59,801 nucleotides of DNA, from contig NZ_KB894602.1 of assembly GCF_000374545.1 (NCBI RefSeq), positions 1-59,801 on the forward strand, in the 5' to 3' direction. Shown here in pieces: positions 24,859 through 59,186 of the stretch. Below the pieces are notes generated by a model, which worked only from the letters and a program-made list of their open reading frames with translations, searched no databases and was not told the DNA's origin. How positions within the stretch are numbered: position 1 is the stretch's first letter; each line of letters begins with the position of its first letter. The DNA comes from Anaeromusa acidaminophila DSM 3853. Lineage in GTDB: Bacteria > Bacillota > Negativicutes > Anaeromusales > Anaeromusaceae. The translations under genes and the position numbers were made by a program.

Positions 24859-26040
24859 ATGCAATTGGATGTGAGGACGCTTGTAATTTCCCTAATGCTG
24901 GTGGCTGGCGTTAACAGCCTGGTGATGCTGCTGGCTTGGCGTTATACTTCATTGATGCGCAATATTACTGGCTTTTGGAGCCTAAGCCAGCTGCTTTTTT
25001 TATTGGGCACGGCCTTGTTGGCGTTGCGTTACGCTATACCTGGCTTTTTTTCTATTGTCGTAGCAAATTTGGCGTTGCTTGGCGGTCATGCGGCGATGCA
25101 GGAAGGGCTGGGGTATTATATTGGCCAGCCTGGTCTTTACCGCGGCTGGACGTTAAGCATCGTGACTGTGCAATTGGGTTTGGCGGCTTTCTTTACTTAT
25201 GGTATTCCTTCTTTGGAATGGCGCATTATTTGCTATAGTGTGATGGTTGCCGGCATGTGTGTTCTTGGCGTACTGACGCTGCGCGAAAACGGGGAGCAAG
25301 AAGAAGCTCCTAAACGATTTCTGCGCGGAGTCTTTTTTATGACCATGGGAATTATGGCAATTCGCGTTGTGGCTGCGTTTATGGAACCCTTGTCATATGA
25401 AGCGCAGGCCCAGAATCGTTTGTGGCATACGTTGCCTTTAGCGGGATTGCTTTGCTTGTATGTCGCCTTATCATTAGGTTTGTTTTGGATGATTATGCAC
25501 AAGATGAGCTTGCAGTCTCAGCAGCAAGCGGAAACCGATTCGCTGACCGCCGTGGCGAACAGGCGAGCGATGGACGCTTATTTTGCGCAGCTGTATTTAA
25601 AGCAGCCAGGAGCAATCGCAGTGATGATGATTGATATTGACAAGTTTAAGGACATTAACGATTCTTTCGGACATCGAGCCGGAGATTGTTATTTGGTTGC
25701 GATCGCCCAGGAGATCAAAAAAAACTTGCGGCCGGAAGCGGCGTTGTTCCGTTATGCTGGTGATGAATTTTTGGTAGTGATGCAGCAAGCGGATCGGCAA
25801 GCCGTAACGGTTTTCGCGCAGACGGTGCAACAAAAGGTGGAAAAATTGCTCGTTCCCTGGGGGGCGGGCGAGATCATTCAGACTACTGTAAGCTTGGGAT
25901 TGGCCTTGTCGGAGAAACGAGCCAACAGTTGGGATGAGCTGGTACAACTGGCTGACTTGGCGATGTATCGCGTAAAGAGTCAGGGCGGAAATGGCGTTGC
26001 GTGGTATGAAGAGGAAATAAAATTTACGCAAAGTATTTAA
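24859..26040 (+). CDS. Membrane diguanylate cyclase (multi-helix sensor plus GGDEF)
   Basis: A 393-residue protein with about seven transmembrane helices in residues 5-220, resembling a MASE-type integral sensor. A GGDEF domain follows from about 225. The catalytic motif is AGDEF (301-305) in place of GGDEF, with the metal aspartate in MMIDIDKFKDIND. The inhibitory RxxD site is missing (RPEA). Activity is plausible but the Gly to Ala change should be kept in mind. The gene stands alone; a short ACTTGC/GCAAGT hairpin lies just upstream of its start. Confidence 0.88.
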   Translation: MQLDVRTLVISLMLVAGVNSLVMLLAWRYTSLMRNITGFWSLSQLLFLLGTALLALRYAIPGFFSIVVANLALLGGHAAMQEGLGYYIGQPGLYRGWTLSIVTVQLGLAAFFTYGIPSLEWRIICYSVMVAGMCVLGVLTLRENGEQEEAPKRFLRGVFFMTMGIMAIRVVAAFMEPLSYEAQAQNRLWHTLPLAGLLCLYVALSLGLFWMIMHKMSLQSQQQAETDSLTAVANRRAMDAYFAQLYLKQPGAIAVMMIDIDKFKDINDSFGHRAGDCYLVAIAQEIKKNLRPEAALFRYAGDEFLVVMQQADRQAVTVFAQTVQQKVEKLLVPWGAGEIIQTTVSLGLALSEKRANSWDELVQLADLAMYRVKSQGGNGVAWYEEEIKFTQSI

Positions 26041-29357: not shown

Positions 29358-30257
29358 TTAACTTTGGCAGACGCGGCAGCGGCCTTGGGTTTTGGCTTCG
29401 TACATGGCTTCATCCGCGCGTTTGACAAACTCGTCGAAGGTATCGGGGGGCTGATAACGCATCTGGGTAACGCCCAGACTGGCGGTAATAAAAAGCGGCT
29501 GCGGAGCGTCCGCAACAACGATAGGCAGCTTTTGGAGTTTGGCAAGGAGTCGGGAAGCTAGTAAAAAAGCGGCATGTACTACTGTATCAGGCAAGACAAT
29601 AATGAATTCTTCACCGCCGTAGCGCCCGACAAAGCCTTCAGCGCCCACTTCTTTTTGCAACAGCGAGGATAAAGTTCGCAGAACTTGGTCGCCGCTGGTG
29701 TGTCCGTAGGTGTCGTTTATTTTCTTGAAGTGATCAATGTCCAGAAGAATTAAACTTAAAGGCTTTTTAGAGTCGCGAGAGCTGCGCATGGCTTGGGTTA
29801 GCTTTTGCGTAAGCATACGGCGATTCAAAAGGCCGGTGAGGCCGTCGATCATAGCCATTTGCTCAATAACCTTGCGATGCCGCTCCGCTTCTAAAAGGCG
29901 CTTGACCCGATGGCGCAGAACCAACATATTGCAAGGCTTAGTGATGTAATCATCAGCGCCGGCGGCAAAAGCGATGTTGATGGTTTGATCATCATCGCGG
30001 CCAGTGATCATCAGAATGGGTACTGTGTGTCCCTCCGGGAGTGCGCGCAGGGCGGCACAGGCATTGGGACCGTCGATGCCCGGCATGATAACGTCTAAGA
30101 GGACGATATCCGGTTTGTGCTGGCGAAAAAGATCAATAGCCTGATGGCCGGTGCTGGCTTCAATAAATTCATAGCCTTCTGAAGCTAAAGCATCGCGCAG
30201 CATTTGGCGCAGCATGGGTTGGTCATCTGCGATGAGAATCAGCGGGTGGTTGCGCAC
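29358..30257 (-). CDS. Response regulator diguanylate cyclase (REC-GGDEF)
   Basis: A 299-residue protein. The receiver domain (1-120) has an acidic pocket near residues 10-12, the phosphoacceptor in VLLDVIMPGIDG and the lysine in ITKP. The GGDEF domain (about 135-295) has the motif GRYGGEEF and an intact LLDIDHFKKIND. No inhibitory RxxD site precedes the motif. The start is GTG 30257 with AGGAGAG upstream. It lies between a hexokinase gene and a quinone reductase gene on the same strand; no partner kinase is adjacent. Confidence 0.93.
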   Translation of the reverse strand: MRNHPLILIADDQPMLRQMLRDALASEGYEFIEASTGHQAIDLFRQHKPDIVLLDVIMPGIDGPNACAALRALPEGHTVPILMITGRDDDQTINIAFAAGADDYITKPCNMLVLRHRVKRLLEAERHRKVIEQMAMIDGLTGLLNRRMLTQKLTQAMRSSRDSKKPLSLILLDIDHFKKINDTYGHTSGDQVLRTLSSLLQKEVGAEGFVGRYGGEEFIIVLPDTVVHAAFLLASRLLAKLQKLPIVVADAPQPLFITASLGVTQMRYQPPDTFDEFVKRADEAMYEAKTQGRCRVCQS

Positions 30258-33122: not shown

Positions 33123-33282
33123 AGGGGGCTTTTTTGTGAGTTCCTTTTTTGTTCTAACTCTGAATTATTCAAAGTCAGCCATCATTGCAGGAAAAAAGAA
33201 GAGCATTGTGGAAATTTATAAAAATATATTAAATTAATAATTTTTGCACGTCGCCCGAAGAAAAGCATTTGGAGGGAGTTCA

Positions 33283-35850
33283 TTGCGGAAATTATGGCGG
33301 ATTTTTAGCTGTGTAGCGCTTGTCGTAATTATGGTTGTAATCTGGCAGGCGGATCCAGTCGGACGAGCGGAAAATTCCGCTCTGAAGCGGGTATTGATTT
33401 TAAATTCTTATGGGCAAAGCTATAAATGGACGCGCAGCATAGTGGATGGAGCCTCTTCGGTATTGTTGGGACAAGGCGATCGCATGGAATTGACCGTAGA
33501 GGACATGGATAGCAAAAATATCAAAGAACCGGCTTATTTTCCTTTAATCAAAGAGGTCTATGCGTATAAATGGAGGCAAAAGCCTTTTGATTTGATTATT
33601 GCTTCTGATGATACGGCGTTGCAATTTTTGCTGCAGTATCGACAGCAGTTGTTTCCGCAAACGCCGGTTGTTTTTTGCGGCGTCAATGACTACGTGCCGG
33701 AATTGCTGCAGGGCCAAGAGGAATGGTATACAGGCGTAGCGGAAGTAAGCGATTTGAAAAGTACGCTAGAAACTGCACTGCAGGTGCAGCCGCAGGTACG
33801 GCATGTATATGTCATTAATGATCAAACCAATACAGGCAAGGCGATTGAGAAAGAGCGAGAAGTTTTGCAACGCCAATTTCCGCAGCTGCAGTTTCACCCT
33901 TTGGAAGGTAAAACCATGGCGGAGTTGGAAGATGCGGTTTCATCGTTAGGCGAAGACAGCATTGTTTTATTGCTGGTTTTTTTTGAGGACGCTCAAGGTC
34001 AAGCTTTTTCCTACCAAGAAGCTGCCACGCGTTTGTCAGCCCGGAGCAGCGTGCCCATCTACGGGGCTTGGGATTTTTATTTGGGTCATGGAATATTGGG
34101 CGGTAAGCTTGTTAGCGGCTTTGATCAAGGCCGTGTGGCGGCGCAAATGGCGGTGCGCGTTTTAGAAGGTGAATCTCCTTCTAAGATTCCTGTTGTGCGA
34201 GAAAGTATGAATCGCTTTCAATTTGACGACCTCCAGCTGCGGCGCTTTGGAATCGCGAAAGAGCAACTGCCGTCAGGCAGTTTGATTATCAATCGCTCGT
34301 ATAGTGATCAGAAGCAGGTGCTGGTGTTGTATTCGTATGATCCGGATATGCTTTGGGAGCAGCATGTAGATGAAGGCTTGCGCAAGGAACTGGCGGGAGA
34401 CGATTCGGTTAAATTAATCCATGACTATATGGATGTACGCCGCAATATCATGCCGGAATACCCGCAGCATTTGTATGAACTGTATCGGACTAAATATAGT
34501 CAAAAACATTTTGACGCCGTTGTTGCAGTAGACGATGCGGCGTATCAGTTTGTGCAAAATTATCGGCAAGAGCTGTTCCCGGGAGCGCCGCTTATTTTTG
34601 CCGGAGTCAATGATGTTGAATCAGTGCGCGCCTTGCGTCCGGGAGATTCGGTAACAGGCGTAGTGGAGAATATTGACTTGCGAGGCACTCTGGAAACGAT
34701 TACGACGGTCCAGCCGGAAACCAAGCGCATTGTGGTTATCCAGGATACTAGCGCCGTAAGCATGCTTCATAGGCAGCAATTGGAAGAGGAGTGGCCGGCT
34801 TTTGCGGGGCGTTTGGAAAAGGTATATTTAGACGATCTGAATATGTGGGAGCTGCAGGAACGGGTAGCGGCTTTAAAGCCGGACGATGTGGTGCTGTTGC
34901 TGACCTTTACCCAAGATCGTTCGAATAATGTATTTGCCATTGAGGAAAGCTGCCGTTTGCTGGCGCAAAAGTCGAGCGTGCCTATTTATACGCCCTGGGA
35001 TTTTTATTTAGGATACGGGGCTCTTGGCGGCAGAATCAGTCGCGGCAGCGAACATGGAGAATTGACGGCGCAACAGTTAAAGCGCGTCTTAAAAGGCGAA
35101 GAGGCTCGCAACATACCTGTGCTTTGGGAAGCTCCCAGCCGTCATGTCTTTGACTATCAGGTAATGAAAAAATTTGGTCTTGAGGAGGATCGTTTGCCTC
35201 AAGGAAGCGTATTGCTTAATCGGCCTGAGTCCTTTTATGAACAGCATCGCCAACTGGTATGGGGTACGAGCGCGATTTTGACGTGCTTGTTAGCAGTTAT
35301 TTTTTCTTTATATAGCAATATTCGCACTCGGAAGAAAGTGCAACAAAGGTTGGCGGTCCAAGCGGATACAGACCAGCTTACAGGCGTTTTCAATCGGCGC
35401 AGAGGGTTAGCCGAGCTGGAGAGGCTGCATGCTCGTTCATTGGAATGCGAAGCGGCGATGACCATTATCTTTGCGGATGCCAATAATTTAAAGAAGATCA
35501 ATGATCAATACGGGCATACGAACGGTGATGCGGCTATTATCGCCATTGCGGAAGTGCTGAAAAGCTGTCTGCGTCAAAATGATGTTCTTTGCCGTTTGGG
35601 CGGAGATGAGTTTTTGATCATTTTAGAAGGGTGTACGTTGGAGCAGGCGGAAGTTTTTTGGGAACGTGTAGAAAAAACGTTGCGAAAAAGGAATCGTGAA
35701 CGATTTTCGAACATGATTTTGAGCGTCAGCCGGGGCATGGCGGAGTTGAATCCTCAGGAGCCGGTTTCGGTGGAAGCGCTAATTCATTTGGCGGATCAAC
35801 GGATGTATGAAAACAAACGAGAGTATAAGCAAATCAAGGAAATGATCTAA
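33283..35850 (+). CDS. Diguanylate cyclase with two tandem ABC-substrate-binding-like sensor domains
   Basis: An 855-residue protein. After an N-terminal signal anchor come two homologous periplasmic domains of the ABC_sub_bind type (about 30-330 and 345-635). Each starts with a VLILNSY or VLVLYSY strand and contains a FDAVVAVDDAAYQF-like core and a PxTPWDFYLGxG-like segment. A transmembrane helix (about 658-678) leads to a GGDEF domain with GGDEF at 773-777 and an RQND inhibitory site. The start is TTG 33283 behind GGAGGGAG. It probably converts an extracellular ligand signal into c-di-GMP; the ligand is unknown. Confidence 0.9.
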   Translation: MRKLWRIFSCVALVVIMVVIWQADPVGRAENSALKRVLILNSYGQSYKWTRSIVDGASSVLLGQGDRMELTVEDMDSKNIKEPAYFPLIKEVYAYKWRQKPFDLIIASDDTALQFLLQYRQQLFPQTPVVFCGVNDYVPELLQGQEEWYTGVAEVSDLKSTLETALQVQPQVRHVYVINDQTNTGKAIEKEREVLQRQFPQLQFHPLEGKTMAELEDAVSSLGEDSIVLLLVFFEDAQGQAFSYQEAATRLSARSSVPIYGAWDFYLGHGILGGKLVSGFDQGRVAAQMAVRVLEGESPSKIPVVRESMNRFQFDDLQLRRFGIAKEQLPSGSLIINRSYSDQKQVLVLYSYDPDMLWEQHVDEGLRKELAGDDSVKLIHDYMDVRRNIMPEYPQHLYELYRTKYSQKHFDAVVAVDDAAYQFVQNYRQELFPGAPLIFAGVNDVESVRALRPGDSVTGVVENIDLRGTLETITTVQPETKRIVVIQDTSAVSMLHRQQLEEEWPAFAGRLEKVYLDDLNMWELQERVAALKPDDVVLLLTFTQDRSNNVFAIEESCRLLAQKSSVPIYTPWDFYLGYGALGGRISRGSEHGELTAQQLKRVLKGEEARNIPVLWEAPSRHVFDYQVMKKFGLEEDRLPQGSVLLNRPESFYEQHRQLVWGTSAILTCLLAVIFSLYSNIRTRKKVQQRLAVQADTDQLTGVFNRRRGLAELERLHARSLECEAAMTIIFADANNLKKINDQYGHTNGDAAIIAIAEVLKSCLRQNDVLCRLGGDEFLIILEGCTLEQAEVFWERVEKTLRKRNRERFSNMILSVSRGMAELNPQEPVSVEALIHLADQRMYENKREYKQIKEMI

Positions 35851-38943: not shown

Positions 38944-40284
38944 ATGAATCTTCAACTTTCGACACAATTAAAACAGCAACTGACGCTGACTCCTGCGCTC
39001 TGCCAGTCTTTAGCGGTGCTGCAGATGGCTGCGCTAGAACTGGAACAGAACTTACAGCAGCAGGCTGAAGAAAATCCGCTGTTGGAGTGGGAAGAGGGCG
39101 CTCCGCCGGATTATGAGGCATTGGCTCGTTATTTAGATACTCCCGGAACGGCGGCGGGAACGGCGGCAACCAAGGACGATGAGGAAATGCCGCCTCCCTG
39201 GGAACGCGCTGCAGCGGAGCAAACGTTAACTTTAGGGACTTTTTTAGAAAAACAGCTTGTAGAAAGCGGCTGCCCCCAAGGGCTAAAATCGTTGGTGCGT
39301 TTTTTTATCGGCTGTCTGGATGAACGAGGGTATTTGACGGTGAGCATAGAGGAAGCGATTGCTTGCCTGGAACGTGACGCCGAAGAGGTGCAAGCGGCGT
39401 TGTTTTGGCTGCAGTCGCTGGAACCACCAGGCGTAGGGGCGTCCGGCTTGGAAGAATGCTTGCTTTTGCAGTTGCAGCGTCAAGGAGCGGGTGAATCATT
39501 AGCGGCTAAGCTGGTGGAAAAAGGGCTGCTGGATGACGTGGCTCAAGGTCGTTGGAAGAGGTTGACGCAGGCGTTGGCCTGCACGCAGGAAGAGCTGGAT
39601 GAGGCATTACATTGCTTGCGGTCTTTAGACCCGCGCCCAGGCCGGGCCTTTGCTACGGCGGAAACGGTGTATGTACTGCCGGATGTGCGAATTGAACGGC
39701 AGGGGGACGAGTTTCGCGTAGAAGTGGCAATGCCTTGGAAAGGGCTTACCATTAGCCAGGAATACCGTAAAATGGTTTCTGGCGGCGGCGAAGCGGTTAA
39801 AGAATTTGTACAGGGACGGCTGAATGCGGCGCTGCAGCTTTTGAAGAGCTTGGATCAGCGTCGACAGACGCTGCAAACACTGGCGGAAATCTTGGTGCAG
39901 CGTCAGGAAGACTTTTTCTTGCATGGTCGGCGGCATATGAAGCCGTTATCTATGCGCCAAATGGCGGATGAACTGGGAGTTCATGAATCAACGGTCAGCC
40001 GGACCGTGGCCGGGAAATACGCCTTAACGCCGCATGGTTTGCTGCCGTTGCGCGATTTCTTTCCAGCCGCCGCCTTTGCTGTAGGCGGGGAGAATGTTGC
40101 AGCCGATGGCGTCAAGGAGCGCATTCGCGCCTTGATCCAGGAGGAGCCGCAGGGGGAACCGCTGAGCGATCAAAAACTCTGCGAAATGTTGAGTGAAGAA
40201 GGAATTCCTATTTCGCGGCGTACAGTAGCTAAATATCGCGAAGAAATGCATATACCGTCTTCTTCGAAAAGAAAGAGAAAATAA
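38944..40284 (+). CDS. rpoN: RNA polymerase sigma-54 factor
   Basis: A 446-residue sigma-54. It has the N-terminal activator-interacting region (LTPALCQSLAVLQM), an acidic linker, the core-binding region, a helix-turn-helix (MADELGVHESTVSRTVAGKY) and the RpoN box ISRRTVAKYRE near the C-terminus. It requires enhancer-binding AAA+ activators, none of which are in the window. It is the last gene of the thiM-sixA-CYTH/CHAD-rpoN run and ends at a strong terminator. Confidence 0.96.
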   Translation: MNLQLSTQLKQQLTLTPALCQSLAVLQMAALELEQNLQQQAEENPLLEWEEGAPPDYEALARYLDTPGTAAGTAATKDDEEMPPPWERAAAEQTLTLGTFLEKQLVESGCPQGLKSLVRFFIGCLDERGYLTVSIEEAIACLERDAEEVQAALFWLQSLEPPGVGASGLEECLLLQLQRQGAGESLAAKLVEKGLLDDVAQGRWKRLTQALACTQEELDEALHCLRSLDPRPGRAFATAETVYVLPDVRIERQGDEFRVEVAMPWKGLTISQEYRKMVSGGGEAVKEFVQGRLNAALQLLKSLDQRRQTLQTLAEILVQRQEDFFLHGRRHMKPLSMRQMADELGVHESTVSRTVAGKYALTPHGLLPLRDFFPAAAFAVGGENVAADGVKERIRALIQEEPQGEPLSDQKLCEMLSEEGIPISRRTVAKYREEMHIPSSSKRKRK

Positions 40285-40851: not shown

Positions 40852-41153
40852 AATAATAGCCTCCTTATAACTTGGCTGTATAATTTTTACACTAAAAAAG
40901 GATTAAGGCGATACAGTTGACGAATTTAATAAAGTTAGCATAACACGACTTGGGCGCAACTGCAAGGGAGGCCGTGAAGCATTGTAAATGCTGGCGAAGC
41001 GTTCCTTGCAGCGGTGAATTTAAAAGCGTAATTAGCAGTTGATGAAGCGCGAAGAAAGTAGCTCCTTGCTTTGATTCCGCTAGAAAACAAGGAATTAAGC
41101 GGATAAACACGAATGTATTTTTAATAGTAGGATGAGATATGGAGGGTTCGGTA
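40852..41153. other. Divergent spacer upstream of the chemosensory operon, with a folded element
   Basis: CTGCAAGG (40960-40967) pairs perfectly with CCTTGCAG (41004-41011). Inside, AGCATT (40978-40983) pairs with AATGCT (40987-40992). The element could be a leader RNA of the MCP-CheA-DGC operon. It does not match the c-di-GMP riboswitch classes I remember. No gene is seen. Confidence 0.55.
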
Positions 41154-43352
41154 ATGAGCGTACGGAAAAAAATGGTTCTTTCCTTTTCAGGCTTGTTTGC
41201 ATTGATACTGCTGCTTGTTTCGGCAGGCGGATATTTTTTTGTTAAAGAGCAGCTTTCAAGGCAGCTCGAGCAGCGGTTGGAAGCTTCTGTGGAGGCGCAA
41301 GAGCATCGCATAGAAGGCTGGCTGAATACGAAAAAAGCCGTTGTAGAATTAACGGGAAGCATGGTTCGGAAATTATCGGGCAATGCGGCCGTTGCTCCCG
41401 CTTGGCTTGGCGCATATCAAGGCATGGATAAAGACTTTTTGGATATGTATTTTTCGGATACTGCAGGGAAAATGGTCAGCGCCAACGGGTGGGCCCCTCC
41501 GGCTGGCTTTGATTCGCGCCAACGGGTTTGGTATCAAGCGGCGTCTAAGGCGAATAAGGCAGTGTTTAGCGATTTTTACATAGATGAAGGCTCTCGGAAA
41601 CTAACAGCCACGATTTCGATGCCTGTGTTTACCGCAGCGGGTCAAGTTAAGGGCGTCTTGGGAGCGGATATTTTCCTAACGGCGTTGCCTGAGTTTGTTA
41701 AAGACCTGCACTATGAAGGCGAAGGCCAGGCTTTTTTAATGAACCGCCAAGGGCTGATCGGCGTGCATCCGTCGGAGGAAATGATTTCAAAAAATGCACT
41801 GAATGCAGAAGCATACCCTGAACTGGCGGCGGCGTTGCAGCTTGCTCTGCAACAGGAGAATGGACAAGTTGCTTATAAAGAGCAAGGCGTAGAGCGGGTA
41901 TTGGTATACCGAGCCATTTCAGGAACACCATGGGTATTGTGTTTTCAAATGGAAAAAAGTTTAGTCTACCAGCCTCTGCAACAGCTTTTGCTGTTCTTTG
42001 CAGCCGTGACCTTGGGCGCTATTTGCCTGGTAGTGTTTGTGACGTACCGTCTGGCCGGGCGGATGGTTGAACCGTTGCAAGAGCTCAATGCCAAGGTGGG
42101 GGATTTGGCGCAGGGAGATTTGCGTGTTCGTGCGGCAGCCGAAGGCGACGACGAAGATGAAATAGTCCAATTAGCTGCTGGTTTTAATCAAATGGCGGAT
42201 GATTTGCAAAGCATGCTAAAAGATGTTCATAAAGCGACGGATGAGCTTCATACGCAGGCGAATATTCTTGTTGATACGGCGTCTCATGTAGCGGCGAATA
42301 CGCAGGAGTTAAGCGCGACAATGGGCGAAGTCAGCGCGGCAGTAGAAGAAATTACCGCCGGCTCGGAAGAAAATGCCAGCTCAGTAGTGCAGGTGGAAAA
42401 CCATGTTGCTAAGGTTGATGAAAAAGCGCACCAAATGTTTCAAGCGGCTACCGAGAGCGTCGGCGTTTCCTTGGAAGTTGCCAAACAAGTGGCTCAGGTG
42501 AGCGGTTGGATGGAAGAAATGTCTCAGAGCATTCAAAGAATGAGCCTGTTGTTGCAAAAAGTTTCTGTTTCTTGTAAGCATTCTTTGCAAATTGCAGGAC
42601 AGGCGCAGGCGCGTTCACAGGAAACAACCGCCATTATGACCGCGTTAAACGGCTCTTCTAAACAAATTAATAGCATTGTCGGCATCATTCGAACGATTGC
42701 GGAACAGACGAACATGTTGGCGCTGAATGCAACCATCGAAGCGGCGGGAGCTGGAGAAGCCGGCAAGGGTTTTGCCGTAGTCGCTAGGGAGGTAAAGGAG
42801 CTGTCGAGAAGAACCTCCGAAGAAGCAGGGCGCATTGCGGCGCAAATAGAGACGATGCAGGATGATATGGCCAGCGCAGTGAAAGCGGTGGAAAACATAA
42901 ATGGCGTTATTGGGGAAACAAGAAAAATTACTCGTTCCATTGCAGCTTCTGTTAACGAGGAGGATGTGAGCGAGCTGGAGGCGGAAGAGCGTCAGGAAAC
43001 AACGCTGCGCCAGGAAATGGCTTTGATTGTGGCTAAAAGTTCACATGTTGCGGAAAATGCGGTACTGGCCGCACAAGAAGTCAAAAATCTATCGCAAACC
43101 AATGAAGATATAGCGCAGCAAGCCGAATCGGTAGCTCAGAGTACTGGAGAAATGGCGCATATGATGCGAAATATTGCGGAAGCTACTCATGAAATCGCCA
43201 AAGGAACCCAAGCCATTTCGTGCAGCCTGCAGGAGTCGGAAAAAGCGATTGTTGATACCGCCGCCAAGGCGAGCACGGTTAGCGGCTGCGCCTATGAAAC
43301 CGAAGGCATGTCCGACAAGCTGAAAGAACTGGTAGCTAGATTTAAGGTCTAA
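41154..43352 (+). CDS. Methyl-accepting chemotaxis protein with dCache sensor
   Basis: A 732-residue transmembrane receptor: helix 1 (about 8-30), periplasmic dCache_1 domain (about 35-280), helix 2 (about 288-310), HAMP, then a long signalling coil. The sensor has [14 protein letters not shown] and GADI at the positions of the amino-acid-binding dCache motif. The hairpin tip reads [23 protein letters not shown], with Gly where the family has Arg (AARAGE). A charged stretch [11 protein letters not shown] interrupts the C-terminal coil arm, and no CheR pentapeptide ends it. ATG 41154 follows GGAGGG. It is the first gene of the operon with hybrid CheA and REC-GGDEF. Confidence 0.93.
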
Positions 43353-43391
43353 TTTTTGCCGTTGTAGAGGCCGAATTGCAGGTGAATGACG

Positions 43392-45956
43392 ATGGAAACC
43401 GATGAGGAATTGCGACAAGAATTCGTGCTGGAGGCAAAAGCTCATTTGGCGGCGATGGAAGAAGCGTTGTTGAGGCTGGAAAAGCATTCCGCCGATGAAG
43501 AGGCTGTACGAGTTATTTTGCGCGGGGCGCATAGTATAAAAGGAACGGCTGGCTTTTTTTCAATGGAAGCATTGGTGCGAGTGGCGCATAGTTTGGAATC
43601 TTTTTTGGGAAGCATCAGAGAACGGCAGGCTATTGTGACATCTCCTATGATGGATGCGCTGTTGAATGTATTGGATGCGCTTCGCAAGCTGTTGCAGAGT
43701 CCGCCTGAAGTTGCGCTGACTCCAGATGTGGAGGCGGTGTTGAAGCGGCTTCAGGAGCAGCTGGAAGAAAAGCCTTCGGTAACGTCCTGTTATCCCGGTG
43801 CGGTTGAGGAAGAAAAGGAAGAAATCGGCGAAGGGCTGTCTGTTTTAAACAGCACCGATGAATATGTGCGTGTAAACAAACGAATTTTAAATGATTTGCT
43901 AGCTCTGGCGGGAGAAATGGTTTTACGCCGCAATCAACTTCTCAGGCTTTCTCAGCAAATGCAGGGGATGCCGCAATTAGAAGCGGTTTCCAATGGCATT
44001 GACGAGTTGACGACGCAATTGCAGAAAAAGATATTGCAAACGCGCATGCAGCCTATGGGCGGGATTTTGAATAAATTTCCGCGTATTGTCAGGGATTTAT
44101 CACGCAAACTGGGGAAAGAAGTGTCACTGCATCTTTCGGGGTTGGAAGTTGAATTAGATCGCTCCATGATTGAGGCGTTAATGGATCCGATGAACCACTT
44201 GATACGAAATGCCCTAGATCATGGCATTGAAGAGCCAAGTATGCGGCGACAACTGAAAAAATCCAGCCAGGCGTCTTTGGCAATTCGGGCGTATCATGAA
44301 AGCGAACGCGTTGTGATCGAGGTTAGTGACGACGGCAGGGGCATTTCTTTGAAGCGCATCAAGGAAACGGCTGTGCAAAAAGGATTCGCAACGGAAAAAG
44401 AACTGGAGCTGCTGAGCTCAGGTCAATTGCTGCGCTTTGTGTTGCATCCCGCTTTTTCTACGGCGCAAACGGTAACTGACTTATCGGGGCGCGGCGTAGG
44501 GCTGGATGTAGTAAAAGCGAATATTGAAAAGATCGGCGGAAAAATCGAAATTGAATCTTGCGAGGGGCAAGGGACGACATTTCGCCTGGTGCTGCCGTTG
44601 ACTCTGGCTATTATATCCGCCTTTATCGTGTTGTCCCAAGGGCAAACATTTGCCATTCCCCAAGCCAATGTGAGGGAATTAGTGTTGATCTTGCCTGACA
44701 GCGGGCGTGATAAACGATTGGAGAAAGTCAATGGAAAGCCAGTTCTGCGTCTGCGCGGACAATGCATGCCTCTTGTATACCTTCGTGAATTATTAGGAGA
44801 GGACAATGCCAGCGAGACTCTTTCAGCCGATGAATATGTGCGGATTTTAGTGATCAAGGCCGGGGCGCAGGACTACGCATTGGCGGTAGATTCCGTCTAT
44901 GATACGGAAGAAGTGCTGGTCAAGCCGGTACCGGAAGTGATGAAAAGCAGAAAGATCTATTCCGGCCTGACGGTGCTTGGAGATGGCAACGTTGCGATGA
45001 TTTTGGATGCGGAGGGACTTTGCTTAGAAGCTGGACTTGCGTTAGGAGAAAAGAAGCTGGTTCCAGCCGAAGCATTTATTTCGGAGCGTGCTGAGCAAGA
45101 GGAAATGTATTTGCTTTTGTTTCAGTGCAGCGGGCCGGAGCAACTGGCGGCGGATTTGTCTTTCGTTGCCAGGATTGAAGAAATTTCACGCGATCAATTG
45201 CAAGAAGTCGGGGGCAAGCAGTATGCGCTGCTTCAAGGAGAGACGTTGCGTGTTTTTCAGCCTGAAGAATATTTGCCGTTTGCCAGCAATGCGCTTGCGC
45301 AGGAGAAGCTGTATGTAATTGTTACTAAGAAGCTTCACGCGAAAGTAGGTTTTTTAGCAAGCGTTATTCACGATGCGATTCGTTTACACTTGGTGTTGGA
45401 TGAACACGGCGTACAAGGAAACGGCATAATCGGTTCCGCGCAAGTCGACGGGCGTATTGTAACGGTATTGGATTTGCATAGCCTTGTTATGTATGCGGCA
45501 CCGGAATACAATAAAAGAATAGGGTTGCCAGAGGGAGTTTTTGATAAACCGCTGGACCGGAAAACAAGGGTTTTACTGGCGGAAGATTCGCCGGTATTTG
45601 CCCGGCTAGTTCAAAGCTGTTTGACGAGTGCCGGCTATATAGTGAAGATCGCCGAAAACGGAAAAATAGCATGGGATTATTTGCAAGAAAAGTCTTTTGA
45701 CGTGCTTATTAGCGACATGGAAATGCCGGAGCTGGACGGACTGGAATTGATTGCGTTATTGCGAAGCCAGGAAAGACTTAAAGCTATGCCTGCCGTCGCG
45801 CTGACTTCTTTGGCGGATGAAGAACATCGCAAGCAAGCGTTGCAGTCAGGATTTGACCGCTACTTAGTGAAGCTGGATCGCAGAGAATTGTTGGAGACCC
45901 TTCAAGAGTTACGATTAGAGTCGGCGAGGGAGGTGCAAGATGGAGGAGAGGCCTAA
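43392..45956 (+). CDS. Hybrid CheA kinase: Hpt - kinase - CheW - CheW - receiver
   Basis: An 854-residue CheA-type kinase. The Hpt domain (1-110) has phospho-acceptor His47 in RGAHSIKGTAGFF. A short linker without an obvious P2 domain leads to dimerisation helices (about 155-215) and an HATPase with HLIRNALDHGIE, DDGRGIS and GRGVGLDVV. Two CheW-like domains follow (about 402-540 and 565-705). A receiver (about 725-845) has AEDSP, ISDMEMPELDG and YLVKLD. ATG 43392 fits the ribosome site CAGGTGA. It overlaps the next gene by 17 bases. Built-in CheW domains may remove the need for a separate CheW. Confidence 0.93.
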   Translation: METDEELRQEFVLEAKAHLAAMEEALLRLEKHSADEEAVRVILRGAHSIKGTAGFFSMEALVRVAHSLESFLGSIRERQAIVTSPMMDALLNVLDALRKLLQSPPEVALTPDVEAVLKRLQEQLEEKPSVTSCYPGAVEEEKEEIGEGLSVLNSTDEYVRVNKRILNDLLALAGEMVLRRNQLLRLSQQMQGMPQLEAVSNGIDELTTQLQKKILQTRMQPMGGILNKFPRIVRDLSRKLGKEVSLHLSGLEVELDRSMIEALMDPMNHLIRNALDHGIEEPSMRRQLKKSSQASLAIRAYHESERVVIEVSDDGRGISLKRIKETAVQKGFATEKELELLSSGQLLRFVLHPAFSTAQTVTDLSGRGVGLDVVKANIEKIGGKIEIESCEGQGTTFRLVLPLTLAIISAFIVLSQGQTFAIPQANVRELVLILPDSGRDKRLEKVNGKPVLRLRGQCMPLVYLRELLGEDNASETLSADEYVRILVIKAGAQDYALAVDSVYDTEEVLVKPVPEVMKSRKIYSGLTVLGDGNVAMILDAEGLCLEAGLALGEKKLVPAEAFISERAEQEEMYLLLFQCSGPEQLAADLSFVARIEEISRDQLQEVGGKQYALLQGETLRVFQPEEYLPFASNALAQEKLYVIVTKKLHAKVGFLASVIHDAIRLHLVLDEHGVQGNGIIGSAQVDGRIVTVLDLHSLVMYAAPEYNKRIGLPEGVFDKPLDRKTRVLLAEDSPVFARLVQSCLTSAGYIVKIAENGKIAWDYLQEKSFDVLISDMEMPELDGLELIALLRSQERLKAMPAVALTSLADEEHRKQALQSGFDRYLVKLDRRELLETLQELRLESAREVQDGGEA

Positions 45957-46923
45957 AATACTTGTAGTTGACGATAGTCTGGTAGAGCTTAAAATTATTC
46001 GCAAACGGCTAGGAGAGCAATATCACGTATTGCTGGCTGCGAGTGGCGCGGAAGCTTTGGAATTGCTGAAAAAAGAAACGGTAGACCTAATCTTGCTGGA
46101 TATATTGATGCCGGAGATGGATGGTATTTCGGTTTGTAAAATTCTCAAGTCGGCGGAAGCGACGCTGGAAATTCCCGTGTTGTTTCTAACGGCGTTGGCT
46201 GACTCTCAGAGCATTGTCGAGGGGTTTACGGCTGGAGGGCAGGATTATATTACGAAACCGTTTCAAGAGGACGAGTTTCGAGCGCGCGTGAAAGTTCACC
46301 TGGAATTGAGGCAGGCCAAAAAGCAGTTAGAACGGTATGCGACGGAACTTGAGGAAAAAAATATGCTGTTGCAGACGCTGCTGGATAAGATGGAAAAAAC
46401 AGTCCGCACCGATTATCTTACAGGTCTGGAAAATCGGCGCAGCGCCACGAAACGCTTGCGTGAGGAACTGGCCAGAATGCGTCGCCGAGGCGAGTCGGGA
46501 AGCTTGCTTTTGGCGGATATCGATTCGTTTAAAGTGATTAATGATACCTATGGTCATGAAGCCGGCGACGTAGTGCTGCAACTGGTATCGCATCGAATGG
46601 AGACGGCTGTGCGTGAAGAAGATATTGTCGCCCGCTGGGGAGGGGAAGAGTTCTTAATCCTTTTGCCGGAACTTTCTTTGCCGGAAGCGCTGCATGTTGC
46701 CGAGCGCATCCGCAAAACCATCTCGCAAGAACCGGTTATCTATCAAGGAGAAAAGCTGGAGATAACGGTTACTCTAGGCGTGGCGGCAATAGATGTGAAC
46801 GTAGGCATGGAGGAAAGTATCAAACGAGCGGATCAAGCCTTATATGAAGGGAAGCATCAGAGCAAGAATTGTGTTGCCTACTGCGGGGCGGAAGGTCAGT
46901 GCTTAGTATGCCGTGAAAATTAA
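45940..46923 (+). CDS. Response regulator diguanylate cyclase (REC-GGDEF) of the chemosensory operon
   Basis: A 327-residue protein. The receiver (1-125) has VVDDS, phosphoacceptor Asp in LLDILMPEMDG and TKPF. A coiled linker (about 130-160) leads to a GGDEF domain with ARWGGEEF and an REED inhibitory site. The last 15 residues hold three cysteines (NCVAYCGAEGQCLVC has four counting the first), an unusual ending. It overlaps the hybrid CheA gene by 17 bases, so it is the likely phosphorylation target and would turn the chemoreceptor signal into c-di-GMP, in the manner of WspR. Confidence 0.94.
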   Translation: MEERPKILVVDDSLVELKIIRKRLGEQYHVLLAASGAEALELLKKETVDLILLDILMPEMDGISVCKILKSAEATLEIPVLFLTALADSQSIVEGFTAGGQDYITKPFQEDEFRARVKVHLELRQAKKQLERYATELEEKNMLLQTLLDKMEKTVRTDYLTGLENRRSATKRLREELARMRRRGESGSLLLADIDSFKVINDTYGHEAGDVVLQLVSHRMETAVREEDIVARWGGEEFLILLPELSLPEALHVAERIRKTISQEPVIYQGEKLEITVTLGVAAIDVNVGMEESIKRADQALYEGKHQSKNCVAYCGAEGQCLVCREN

Positions 46924-48209: not shown

Positions 48210-49430
48210 ATGAACATTTGTTGGCAAGATAATCGTTCTAGTAAATTTTACCAACATCCAGCGAGCTCTCCGGAGAAATTTTCTTTAGAGGAGACTGCAA
48301 AAGTTCGCGCTTTTCACAGCAGCTTTCCGCAGTACCAGCCCACGCCTTTGCGTTCGTTGCCTCGATTGGCGGAACTCTTGGGAGTCGGGGGAATTTATGT
48401 AAAAGATGAGTCCTTCCGATTTGGTCTCAATGCGTTTAAAGGCCTTGGCGGTTCGTATGCTATGGGGAAGTATTTAGCAGAGCGCCTGGGGATGGATATT
48501 AGCGAGCTTCCTTTTTCAAGATTAACGGGGGCTGAGGTAAAAGCCCGCTTGGGAGATATTACCTTTGCGACGACGACCGATGGCAATCACGGACGAGGCG
48601 TAGCTTGGACGGCGAAGATGTTGCAGCAAAAAGCGGTGGTGTATATGCCGAAAGGCTCGACGGAATATCGTTTGGAAGCGATTCGGCAAGAAGGCGCTGA
48701 GGCGGAAATTATGGACTGGAATTATGACGATACGGTTCGTTATACAGCCCGTCGAGCGGCGGAAGAAGGCTGGGTTATTGTTCAAGATACGGCATGGGAA
48801 GGATATGAAGAAATTCCACTTTGGATTATGCAAGGATATGCGACCATGGCGGATGAGGCGTTGGAACAGTTAAAACAAGACCATGGCTTAACGGCGCCTA
48901 GTCATGTAATGATTCAAGCGGGTGTCGGTTCTTTGGCAGGCATGCTGCAAGGCGTACTGGCGGCGCGCTATGGAGAGGAGCGGCCTCGTTTAGCCGTGGT
49001 GGAAGCACGCCCAGCTGATTGTTTGTATCGTTCTGCCGTAGCGAATGACGGCAGTCCTCATGCGGTTGGAGGCGATTTGACTACCATTATGGCGGGGTTG
49101 GCCTGCGGCGAAGCAAATTATATGGGTTGGGAATTGTTGCGGGATTACGGGGAATTCTTTTTCTCCTGCTCCGATGAAGTAGCGGCGCGCGGTATGCGCG
49201 TGCTTGGCAATCCGCTTCGCGGCGATGCACAGGTGATTTCCGGAGAATCCGGAGCGGTGCCGCTTGGGCTGCTATCCTTGTTGCTGGAGCGCAGCGAATG
49301 GCGAGAAGCTAAGGAAATGATGGGCCTTACATCGCAATCTCAAATCTTGCTGTTTAGTACGGAAGGGGATACGGATCCTCAGCGTTACCGTGATGTTGTC
49401 TGGGACGGCAGCTATTCCAGCGGTCGATAA
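48210..49430 (+). CDS. Diaminopropionate ammonia-lyase
   Basis: A 406-residue PLP-dependent enzyme of the YgeX type, splitting 2,3-diaminopropionate to pyruvate and two ammonia. The PLP lysine lies in NAFKGLGGSYA. TTDGNHGRGVAW and QAGVGSLAGML match the family, and GGDLTTIMAGLACG is typical. ATG 48210 follows AAAGGGG. Adjacent ygeY or related purine-type genes are absent; the next gene is 100 bases away. Confidence 0.93.
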   Translation: MNICWQDNRSSKFYQHPASSPEKFSLEETAKVRAFHSSFPQYQPTPLRSLPRLAELLGVGGIYVKDESFRFGLNAFKGLGGSYAMGKYLAERLGMDISELPFSRLTGAEVKARLGDITFATTTDGNHGRGVAWTAKMLQQKAVVYMPKGSTEYRLEAIRQEGAEAEIMDWNYDDTVRYTARRAAEEGWVIVQDTAWEGYEEIPLWIMQGYATMADEALEQLKQDHGLTAPSHVMIQAGVGSLAGMLQGVLAARYGEERPRLAVVEARPADCLYRSAVANDGSPHAVGGDLTTIMAGLACGEANYMGWELLRDYGEFFFSCSDEVAARGMRVLGNPLRGDAQVISGESGAVPLGLLSLLLERSEWREAKEMMGLTSQSQILLFSTEGDTDPQRYRDVVWDGSYSSGR

Positions 49431-56863: not shown

Positions 56864-57146
56864 ATCGTTCATCCCTTCCGTTACCAAGGCTTTTTTGTGA
56901 TTTGTTCTTGTTCTACCGTCCTGTTGCTTGGCGTATCCTTAAAAGAAGTTTAGTGAAAAATTTATCGGCGGAGTCTTCGCTCACTTCCTTTATTTTAGCA
57001 CATTTCCGGAGGCTCAACGCCGTTAGGCGGGAAAAGTAAGGAAACTAGAAGCGATGAAAAGGGATTAAAGAGTGGTGCATGGAATATAACAGCAAAACTA
57101 AAATTGGCATACTTTTACAATGGTAAAGAGAGGAGCATGCCAGAAG
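56864..57146. other. Divergent spacer
   Basis: The region between the M20 gene and the last diguanylate cyclase holds no feature I can support beyond the expected leader sequences. Confidence 0.6.
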
Positions 57147-59186
57147 ATGGAGCAGAAACAGAAGGCGAAAACGAAGTTTGTTTCGATGGATCGAATCATC
57201 CTCTATTTAGGGATCGGGCTGTTGCTGCTGCTTTGGTTTTCCACGTGGCACCGGATTTTAGTAGAATCGGAGATTGAAAAACGGGAGGCTATAAGAGTCA
57301 GTGTAACCTATGGCCGCTCCTTTGCTGACCATGTGTATCATTCGGTGCAGAATGTCGATGATGCGCTGAAAATTGTGCGTCAACATCATCAATGGTTACG
57401 AAATGGATCCGAAGAGGCATCGGTTTCACAAAACTTCTTACAAGAACGAGTATTGTCTTTGGCGGTGGCTGATGAAACAGGGCGTGTGGTTGCTGTTTAT
57501 ACCGGAGAAGAAGCTCGTAAATCGGTAGCGAATGAACCTTTTTTTAAGCATCATCAGCAGCAAGCTCAAGATCAATTGCATAGCGCTTCTCTTATGACGA
57601 CAGAAGATTCGATGTTGACCTGGAGTCGAGGTATTTGGGATAAGGCGGGCGTATTTCGAGGTGTTGTATTTGCGACAAGTTCTAAACGCGCTTTGACGGA
57701 ATTTCTTTGGGAATTGGAATTGGAAAGTGATGCGGTGCTTGTTGTTTTAGGAGAAGATAATACCCTTCGTTCTTGGCAGCCAGAGGCTCTTCTAGAAGGA
57801 AAGCAAGAAGCGTTGGGGCAATTTTTAGGACAGCAGACGCGGCAGCAAATGGAAGGTGATACAGGGTCTTTTTATGATCAGAGTGGCGAGGAGCGAATTT
57901 TTCATTACTATGCACTGGAATCATATCCTTTGATTGCTGCGACTGGTGTGGACGTAAGCCAGGTTAAAAAAGATATTGCCGAAAGAAGGCAATTTTATCT
58001 ATTGGCTTCTTTGGCGGTTACTCTATTGATTAGCGCGGTTACGGCGCTATTGGTGCGACGCGTGAAAAAAGAGGAAGCTTTGACAAGGCAGGTGGAAACT
58101 TTTGCGCGACAAATGGCTTCATTTCAAACAATAACGAGTCATTTAGTACAGGACCGAGATGAAGTAGGGGATCTGCTGAAAACCATCATTACCGATGCGG
58201 CGCAGCTTATGGATGCGCCGGATGGTTATATTTCGGTTGTTGATAGTAAGGGAAATCTGGAATTTCCGTATGCTGTCGGCTTATATAACGATATGAAAGA
58301 GAGGAAATTTGATAGTACGGCTGGCGTAAGCGGCCAAGTGCTAGCGCAAGGAAAAAGACAGCATATACCGGATTACCAACAAGTGCCGGATAAACTGCTG
58401 GAGCCGGAACTGAGACAGGTCAGTACGGTGCTTATGTATCCTCTGAACAGCGGAGGCCGAACATTGGGCGTGTTTGGTATTTCGTGGAGAGAGAAGCCTT
58501 TTTCTCCTAGCGAAGAGCAGCTAAGTTTCTTGGAGCAGTATGCATTTTTGGCGGCCGTGGCCTTAGAAAAAGTACAGGTTAAGGTGCAGCTGCGCGAAGA
58601 ATTAAAACGTAGCGAAGAACAGCAGATTGATTTGCAAATGGCTTGGAGGATGCTTGATGAAAGCAATCGTAAGCTGCGCATGGCGAATGAGCATTTGGAG
58701 GAGATCGCTCTGACGGATCGGTTGACCGGAGCCTGGAATCGACGCAAGTTTGAAGAAACAGCGGAACAAGAAATGCTGCGCAGTCAGCGTTATCAAGAAG
58801 AAGTATCGATTCTACTTATTGATATTGATTTCTTCAAGCAGATCAATGATGAGCACGGACATCTGGTGGGGGATCAGGTTTTAGTGGAGGTAGTGGAACG
58901 GATCCAGCAAAATCTTCGCGTTGTAGACTCGATTTATCGCTGGGGCGGCGAGGAATTTGCGGTGTTGTTGCCCTGTAGTACGGGCGAGGCGGCTGTGGCG
59001 GCAGCAGAGAAGTTGCGCAGAGAAGTAGAAAACAAGCCTCTTTCAGCTAAAAAGCTACGTCTGACCGTGAGCATTGGAGTGGCGGAATTTATGAGCGAGG
59101 ATACGTTGGAATCTTGGTTAAAACGAGTGGATGACGCCTTATATCAGGCGAAAAAGAGCGGCAGAAACAAAGTCGTATTATTTTAG
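57147..59186 (+). CDS. Diguanylate cyclase with Cache-like and GAF sensors
   Basis: A 679-residue membrane protein: helix 1 (about 17-36), an extracytoplasmic Cache-like domain (about 40-275), helix 2 (about 280-300), a cytoplasmic GAF domain (about 330-480), and a coiled coil (about 485-525). The GGDEF domain has GGEEF at 600-604, an RVVD inhibitory site and LIDIDFFKQIND. It would make c-di-GMP in response to external and internal cues. The start is uncertain: ATG 57147 is some distance after GAGGAG; ATG 57120 lacks a site. A strong terminator follows. Confidence 0.9.
   Translation: MEQKQKAKTKFVSMDRIILYLGIGLLLLLWFSTWHRILVESEIEKREAIRVSVTYGRSFADHVYHSVQNVDDALKIVRQHHQWLRNGSEEASVSQNFLQERVLSLAVADETGRVVAVYTGEEARKSVANEPFFKHHQQQAQDQLHSASLMTTEDSMLTWSRGIWDKAGVFRGVVFATSSKRALTEFLWELELESDAVLVVLGEDNTLRSWQPEALLEGKQEALGQFLGQQTRQQMEGDTGSFYDQSGEERIFHYYALESYPLIAATGVDVSQVKKDIAERRQFYLLASLAVTLLISAVTALLVRRVKKEEALTRQVETFARQMASFQTITSHLVQDRDEVGDLLKTIITDAAQLMDAPDGYISVVDSKGNLEFPYAVGLYNDMKERKFDSTAGVSGQVLAQGKRQHIPDYQQVPDKLLEPELRQVSTVLMYPLNSGGRTLGVFGISWREKPFSPSEEQLSFLEQYAFLAAVALEKVQVKVQLREELKRSEEQQIDLQMAWRMLDESNRKLRMANEHLEEIALTDRLTGAWNRRKFEETAEQEMLRSQRYQEEVSILLIDIDFFKQINDEHGHLVGDQVLVEVVERIQQNLRVVDSIYRWGGEEFAVLLPCSTGEAAVAAAEKLRREVENKPLSAKKLRLTVSIGVAEFMSEDTLESWLKRVDDALYQAKKSGRNKVVLF

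Follow-up and report, generated by a model that had tools for sequence, protein, structure and literature searches.

A three-gene operon of a Negativicutes bacterium (genome of 3.48 Mb in 61 contigs) probably encodes a self-contained, reduced chemosensory pathway, in which a receptor-kinase complex apart from the flagellar array would act on the second messenger c-di-GMP. To judge from its gene content, the operon is a new, conserved minimal variant of the Wsp-like chemosensory/c-di-GMP design, with a predicted function. The evidence comprises gene content, intact catalytic residues, conservation across relatives, clade structure, and the differences of the receptor in tip and length.

Organization of the operon

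The window, i.e. the whole stretch of 59,801 nucleotides that was analysed, carries the genes for receptor, kinase and REC-GGDEF protein side by side on the + strand, at 41154-46923. The initial annotation had described three tightly packed genes, the last two overlapping by 17 bases, and open reading frames and Pfam matches bear this out in full:

41154..43352, + strand: chemoreceptor (MCP), 732 aa (ORF with GGAGGG site; Pfam dCache_1 1.4e-29, HAMP 1.9e-10, MCPsignal 4.6e-33)
43392..45956, + strand: hybrid CheA kinase, 854 aa, with Hpt, P3, P4, CheW (P5), CheW2 and REC domains and without P2 (ORF, Pfam)
45940..46923, + strand: REC-GGDEF diguanylate cyclase, 327 aa (Pfam GGDEF 2e-46, REC 5.7e-27; PleD/DgcR-like by PDB and NCBIfam)

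The receptor frame is open from 41139, but because the ATG at 41154 lies 3' of a GGAGGG ribosome site, 41154, the start first proposed, is preferred. The kinase frame is open from 43386, but a second start codon (ATG at 43392) stands at a more favourable distance from AGGTG; the phospho-accepting histidine is His47, the number first given to it, when counted from 43392, and His49 from 43386. Receptor and kinase genes are separated by 33-39 bases, and the kinase gene ends at 45956, 17 bases into the cyclase gene that starts at 45940. Pfam domains and intact active residues support the proposal of a compact receptor-kinase-diguanylate cyclase pathway within one operon.

A sigma-54 gene (rpoN, 38944-40284) lies upstream of the operon, with an opposite-strand gene in between; inspection by eye showed no clear sigma-54 promoter ahead of the receptor. 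The noncoding stretch 5' of the receptor (40852-41140) is strongly conserved within the genus, which suggests regulatory sites; a promoter scan of this stretch brought out no candidate, and a terminator scan found no excess.

Conservation within the Negativicutes

A search over 150 relatives, followed by annotation of the surroundings of the matches, found the receptor-kinase-REC-GGDEF order in three genomes of the same genus and in one further genome (G010). Kinases whose flanks are free of CheW, CheR and CheB genes were found at 19 loci in 18 Negativicutes genomes (two loci in G038), an absence that covers the flanks examined, some of which end at contig ends. The search suggested at the outset, for the same gene order without CheR and CheB, thus had a positive outcome. 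The 19 kinases, hereafter the compact kinases, form one clade (support 98/92 in the kinase tree). In the rest of the phylum a strong match occurs in only 3 further genomes of 398, at loci with CheW plus CheB and/or CheR. Since the flanking genes vary between genera in size and position, the three-gene block appears to be conserved as a unit. The arrangement is beyond chance and conserved across one class of anaerobic bacteria; we found no description of it in Negativicutes in the open-access literature (PMC text).

CheW, CheR and CheB: lost or relocated

The initial annotation had stated that no separate CheW, CheR or CheB gene lies beside the operon. This can be extended: a domain search found none of the three domains outside the operon anywhere in the 60-kb window. 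The same genome encodes two CheR, two CheB, several CheW and a CheV protein elsewhere, and CheR and further CheW-family proteins are present in all 18 genomes that have the compact operon. Local absence alone therefore means little, and help in trans would be possible.

Phylogenies of these proteins are more informative. CheR proteins encoded beside orthologous systems in the sister groups form, with those of F5-type and related systems, a cognate clade (100/98). The tree covers both CheR proteins of the window's genome and 28 from the other compact genomes, and all of these branch outside that clade. Likewise, the cognate CheW clade (nine rows, 100/96) contains none of the five stand-alone CheW and CheV proteins examined from the window's genome, and both CheB genes of this genome sit in other che clusters. 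A mere relocation of CheW, CheR and CheB within the genome is not supported for the proteins examined in the CheW and CheR trees. As neither set of proteins falls in the cognate clades, the cognate CheW and CheR look lost, not moved.

Three observations concern the other chemosensory genes of this genome. The CheR gene of a second cluster (G000:C17 near 48437-49281; L153:8438-9282) is split over two overlapping frames and is intact in G001 and G002, which indicates a frameshift or a sequencing error in G000. A third CheA (L153:12404-15319) starts with a receiver, followed by two Hpt domains and the kinase core, and adjoins a receptor with three HAMP domains. A PocR-domain receptor with no HAMP match (L156:7141-8671; G000:C16) is paired with its own CheW, with an 11-base overlap.

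A receptor of its own length class

By Pfam, the receptor consists of a periplasmic dCache domain, a HAMP domain and a long signalling hairpin:

41253..41942, + strand: dCache ligand-binding domain (Pfam PF02743; receptor residues 39-268, numbered from 41139)
42573..42575, + strand: codon 479 (from 41139), the N-arm point of a 21-residue (three-heptad) deletion, 60 residues before the hairpin turn (23-receptor alignment)
42951..43001, + strand: non-coiled C-arm segment facing the N-arm deletion, residues 605-621 (alignment; a low-confidence model breaks the helix here)

The hairpin arms have 181 (N) and 199 (C) residues, and thus unequal numbers of heptads. The 22 other receptors examined in the genome have 44H-like arms of about 153/156 residues, roughly four heptads per arm shorter than those of the window receptor, while in relatives without the deletion the arms are 58H-like, with 201-206 residues (N) and 205-211 residues (C), or about 29 heptads per arm. 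Among 23 receptors aligned, 11 compact receptors, the window's included, share the one-sided deletion of 21 residues in the N-arm only, and in 10 of these 11 the opposite C-arm segment is variable in length and sequence and non-coiled. The receptor of G075, in which the deletion is present and the C-arm still coil-like, looks like an intermediate stage. Prolines occur in the facing C-arm segment of 8/11 receptors with the deletion and 0/12 without it (Fisher p 0.0003, which overstates the case because the sequences share kinship). A structure model of the hairpin (pLDDT 61.5) breaks the helix at the expected place, with a confidence too low to establish a bulge. Length changes in receptors have been described as symmetric in heptads (PMC5907407); going by the alignment, the one-sided deletion is an exception to this description.

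The tip differs as well. It includes [GS]AG in the compact set vs NLLALNAAIEAARAG in nearly all other receptors examined of the genome, relative to which several conserved tip positions are changed in the window receptor, e.g. Gly for the usual Arg. A difference of two heptads per arm, that between classes 36H and 40H, is reported to prevent co-assembly in one array (PMC5907407); given this precedent, a difference of about four heptads per arm makes it likely that the window receptor sits in an array apart from the other receptors of the genome. Consensus methylation-like motifs number three on the N-arm and none on the C-arm, a motif match alone not amounting to methylation, and the receptor C-terminus (ARFKV) lacks an aromatic CheR-tether pentapeptide.

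A hybrid kinase with a probable P5 duplicate

Pfam assigns Hpt, H-kinase_dim, HATPase, two CheW and Response_reg domains to the kinase, and no P2; in an alignment of homologues its Hpt histidine and ATP-binding boxes are intact:

43530..43532, + strand: phospho-accepting His codon (CAT) of the Hpt domain, His47 from 43392 (AHSIKGT motif; His in all aligned homologues)
44625..45020, + strand: first CheW-like domain, the P5 regulatory domain of CheA (PF01584 82.3 bits; groups with P5 of all CheAs)
45114..45488, + strand: second CheW-like domain, CheW2 (PF01584 34.2 bits; separate W2 clade; CheW-like barrels in tandem model)
45570..45902, + strand: kinase receiver domain, with the phospho-Asp codon at 45714-45716 (Pfam 3.4e-24; key residues conserved in clade)

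P5, a CheW-like domain, belongs to every CheA. The initial annotation, which had the CheW function built twice into the kinase, does not hold on this point: the first domain is an ordinary P5, and the second appears to derive from P5 and coexists with a separate CheW in relatives. The CheW2 match is weak but real (34.2 bits vs a cut-off of 23.5 for PF01584). In a domain tree, CheW2 domains form one clade (95/90) that takes in F5-type, Nostoc, betaproteobacterial, verrucomicrobial and planctomycete kinases, and CheW2 and P5 together are set apart from stand-alone CheW (100/99); in an earlier, larger tree CheW2 was not one clade, which traces to a single Verrucomicrobial domain with a wrong positional label. 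CheW2 most plausibly goes back to an ancient duplication of P5; capture of a stand-alone CheW was rejected, as the domain branches with P5. Most relatives with CheW2 kinases have kept a stand-alone CheW, which argues that CheW2 was not born as a CheW substitute; it may nevertheless have made CheW dispensable in the compact clade. A tandem model gives CheW-like barrels in both halves, with an unreliable mutual placement (pTM 0.51). About 8% of all CheAs have two CheW domains, and most of these belong to F5 (PMC10782961); the kinase core of the window protein groups with two-CheW kinases, including the alphaproteobacterial flagellar F5-type (98/100), the deep order being open in a larger tree.

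The kinase receiver and the lone CheY

The acidic pair, phospho-Asp, Thr/Ser and Lys of the kinase receiver are retained in 19/19 compact kinases. Among relatives, the receiver is absent in G014 and four f6 genomes and has lost its phospho-Asp in G008 and G044; all these loci carry a lone REC gene where the locus is not cut. In betaproteobacterial relatives REC has a gene of its own and is missing from the kinase, and the Polynucleobacter group combines a separate REC gene with a decayed or absent kinase receiver. In Pirellula relatives the reverse is found: a kinase REC, along with CheW, CheB and CheR, and no lone REC gene seen. Because G037, G464, G263 and the F5-type systems combine a kinase REC with lone REC genes, the trade-off is a tendency, not a rule. 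f6 genomes with CheR, and with no CheB seen nearby, have a decayed or lost kinase receiver.

The receiver thus follows the absence of a lone CheY, not that of CheR/CheB, and tends to replace the lone CheY. It had first been suggested to be a phosphate sink or the adaptation element; the former suggestion gains from this distribution and the latter loses, a role as CheY substitute or phosphate sink fitting better than adaptation. H. pylori, which is not known to have CheR/CheB, still has CheW and CheV proteins, and its pathway acts on flagella instead of a cyclase. Its CheA, like the window kinase, has a fused receiver, which acts as a phosphate sink (PMC10782961).

The cyclase and other outputs

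46612..46623, + strand: I-site RxxD (REED), product-inhibition site (sequence)
46639..46653, + strand: GGEEF active-site motif (sequence)

The Asp/Thr/Lys residues of the cyclase receiver and the GGEEF motif are intact, and the RxxD I-site, lost in three relatives, stands five residues ahead of GGEEF. PleD and Leptospira DgcR are nearest in sequence (PDB, NCBIfam), with scores below the curated equivalog cut-offs of NCBIfam. PleD, DgcR and WspR are REC-GGDEF proteins with GGEEF and I-site that are activated by receiver phosphorylation, and the window protein is alike in sequence. Judging by domain content, it is the only candidate output inside the operon. Four further GGDEF proteins, one of them REC-GGDEF, are encoded in the same 60-kb window (24859-26040, 29358-30257 on the - strand, 33244-35850 and 57120-59186), so c-di-GMP specificity may depend on locality.

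A REC-GGDEF gene lies beside the kinase gene at 13/19 compact loci and a GGDEF gene without REC at 2 more; at the remaining 4 no GGDEF gene is next to the kinase, by which a universal c-di-GMP output of the clade was rejected. At 14 compact loci the operon includes an additional, conserved response regulator, which the window's genus and G010 lack. With four loci lacking GGDEF and 14 having another regulator, c-di-GMP is not the sole output of the clade. At the loci concerned (most of L126-L138, and L149) the extra regulator has 1-2 receivers and a C-terminal domain of STAS/SpoIIAA-like similarity, a weak match (E 0.017, in 1/3 sequences).

Comparison with known systems

The Wsp system of Pseudomonas and the Wsp-like Halomonas cluster 2 (PMC5907407; L237) share with the window operon a receptor of its own length class, a CheA with a C-terminal receiver, and a REC-GGDEF output. 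They differ in that CheW, CheR(-TPR) and CheB are encoded in the cluster and the kinase carries a single CheW domain, whereas the window operon has none of these genes and two CheW domains. The two-CheW clade leaves out the Halomonas ACF kinase (98/100), although a grouping with this single ACF reference, which sits on a very long branch, is for that reason not rejected (AU p 0.31). The parallel with Wsp that the initial annotation drew consequently stands as a shared logic (receptor, CheA-REC, REC-GGDEF) and not clearly as descent: homology to Wsp by descent was set aside because the kinase tree favours the two-CheW/F5 side, the ACF placement not being formally excluded.

F5-type flagellar systems (Azospirillum, Rhodovastum) have the same Hpt-P3-P4-CheW-CheW-REC kinase without P2, and their kinases and CheW2 domains fall in the same clades as those of the window. 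Their loci (L228, L234) have CheW, CheB, CheR, CheY and flagellar genes adjacent, unlike the window operon, which lacks such che genes, and no diguanylate cyclase was seen in the F5-type stretches examined. Sister two-CheW systems occur in Bacillota (G014, f6, G464, G401, G263), with an orthologous kinase, the same receptor family and, at the G014 and f6 loci, a REC-GGDEF gene as in the window. In contrast to the window operon, these systems have retained CheW, mostly also CheR and a lone REC gene, and in some cases CheB, and in G014 and most f6 genomes the kinase REC, intact in the window, is lost or decayed.

Proposed pathway and alternatives

We propose that the dCache receptor and the CheA hybrid form a signalling complex of their own, separate from the flagellar array, in which the state of the receptor would set the autophosphorylation of His47. 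Phosphate would then pass to the receiver of the REC-GGDEF protein and raise c-di-GMP synthesis, which the I-site would limit. On a second branch, it would pass to the C-terminal receiver of the kinase, which would stand in for the free CheY that has been lost and most likely serve as sink or brake. CheW2 is older than the apparent loss of the cognate CheW and probably cushioned it, by taking up the place beside P5, beneath the receptor tips, that CheW would occupy. As the cognate CheR appears lost too, the pathway would run without dedicated methylation. A bolder version, which we put forward tentatively, is that receptor and kinase alone make up a minimal array feeding c-di-GMP, with CheW2 as a permanent coupler, neither CheW nor methylation, and a four-helix hairpin shortened on one strand and bulged on the opposite one.

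Could the missing parts simply be shared? Other chemosensory systems in the same cell might lend the operon CheW, or CheR and CheB, or all three; CheR and additional members of the CheW family occur in each of the compact genomes, the window's genome has both CheR and CheB in two copies besides several CheW and one CheV, and the receptor still shows consensus methylation motifs on its N-arm. Yet the tip and arm lengths of this receptor differ from those of the receptors that such proteins serve, most of these CheW, CheR and CheB genes lie in other che clusters, the CheRs placed in the tree belong to other systems, and the ARFKV terminus offers no CheR tether; we regard borrowing as possible but rather unlikely.

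A role as CheY substitute or phosphate sink also suits the kinase receiver better than an adaptation or feedback role, in which the phosphorylated receiver would inhibit the kinase and restore the pre-stimulus state without CheR/CheB. That role draws on the intactness of the receiver in all compact kinases and on a negative regulatory role reported for the REC of FrzE, in work cited in PMC5907407. It seems improbable, because the receiver also occurs in relatives with CheR and CheB and has decayed or vanished in f6 genomes with CheR and no CheB seen nearby, and so follows the lone CheY instead. Even less probable is a direct feed from the operon to the flagellar motor through a flagellar CheY, with the cyclase as a side branch: the closest named two-CheW kinases do belong to F5-type clusters near flagellar genes, and the window's genome encodes several CheY-like proteins, but the tight partner of the kinase gene is the overlapping REC-GGDEF gene, the operon has no lone CheY, the kinase lacks the CheY-docking P2 domain, and the genome owns a separate che cluster with CheB, CheA and CheW.

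Implications

The compact clade offers a natural experiment on which parts of a chemotaxis system are dispensable, since it retains CheW2 and the fused receiver and its cognate CheW and CheR seem to have disappeared. With only three genes, the operon is small enough for full reconstitution, making three questions directly testable: whether an array can form without CheW, whether chemosensory signalling can proceed without CheR/CheB, and what job the fused receiver does in the kinase. If the bolder version of the proposal is true, these bacteria would have a minimal, two-protein signalling array that feeds c-di-GMP.
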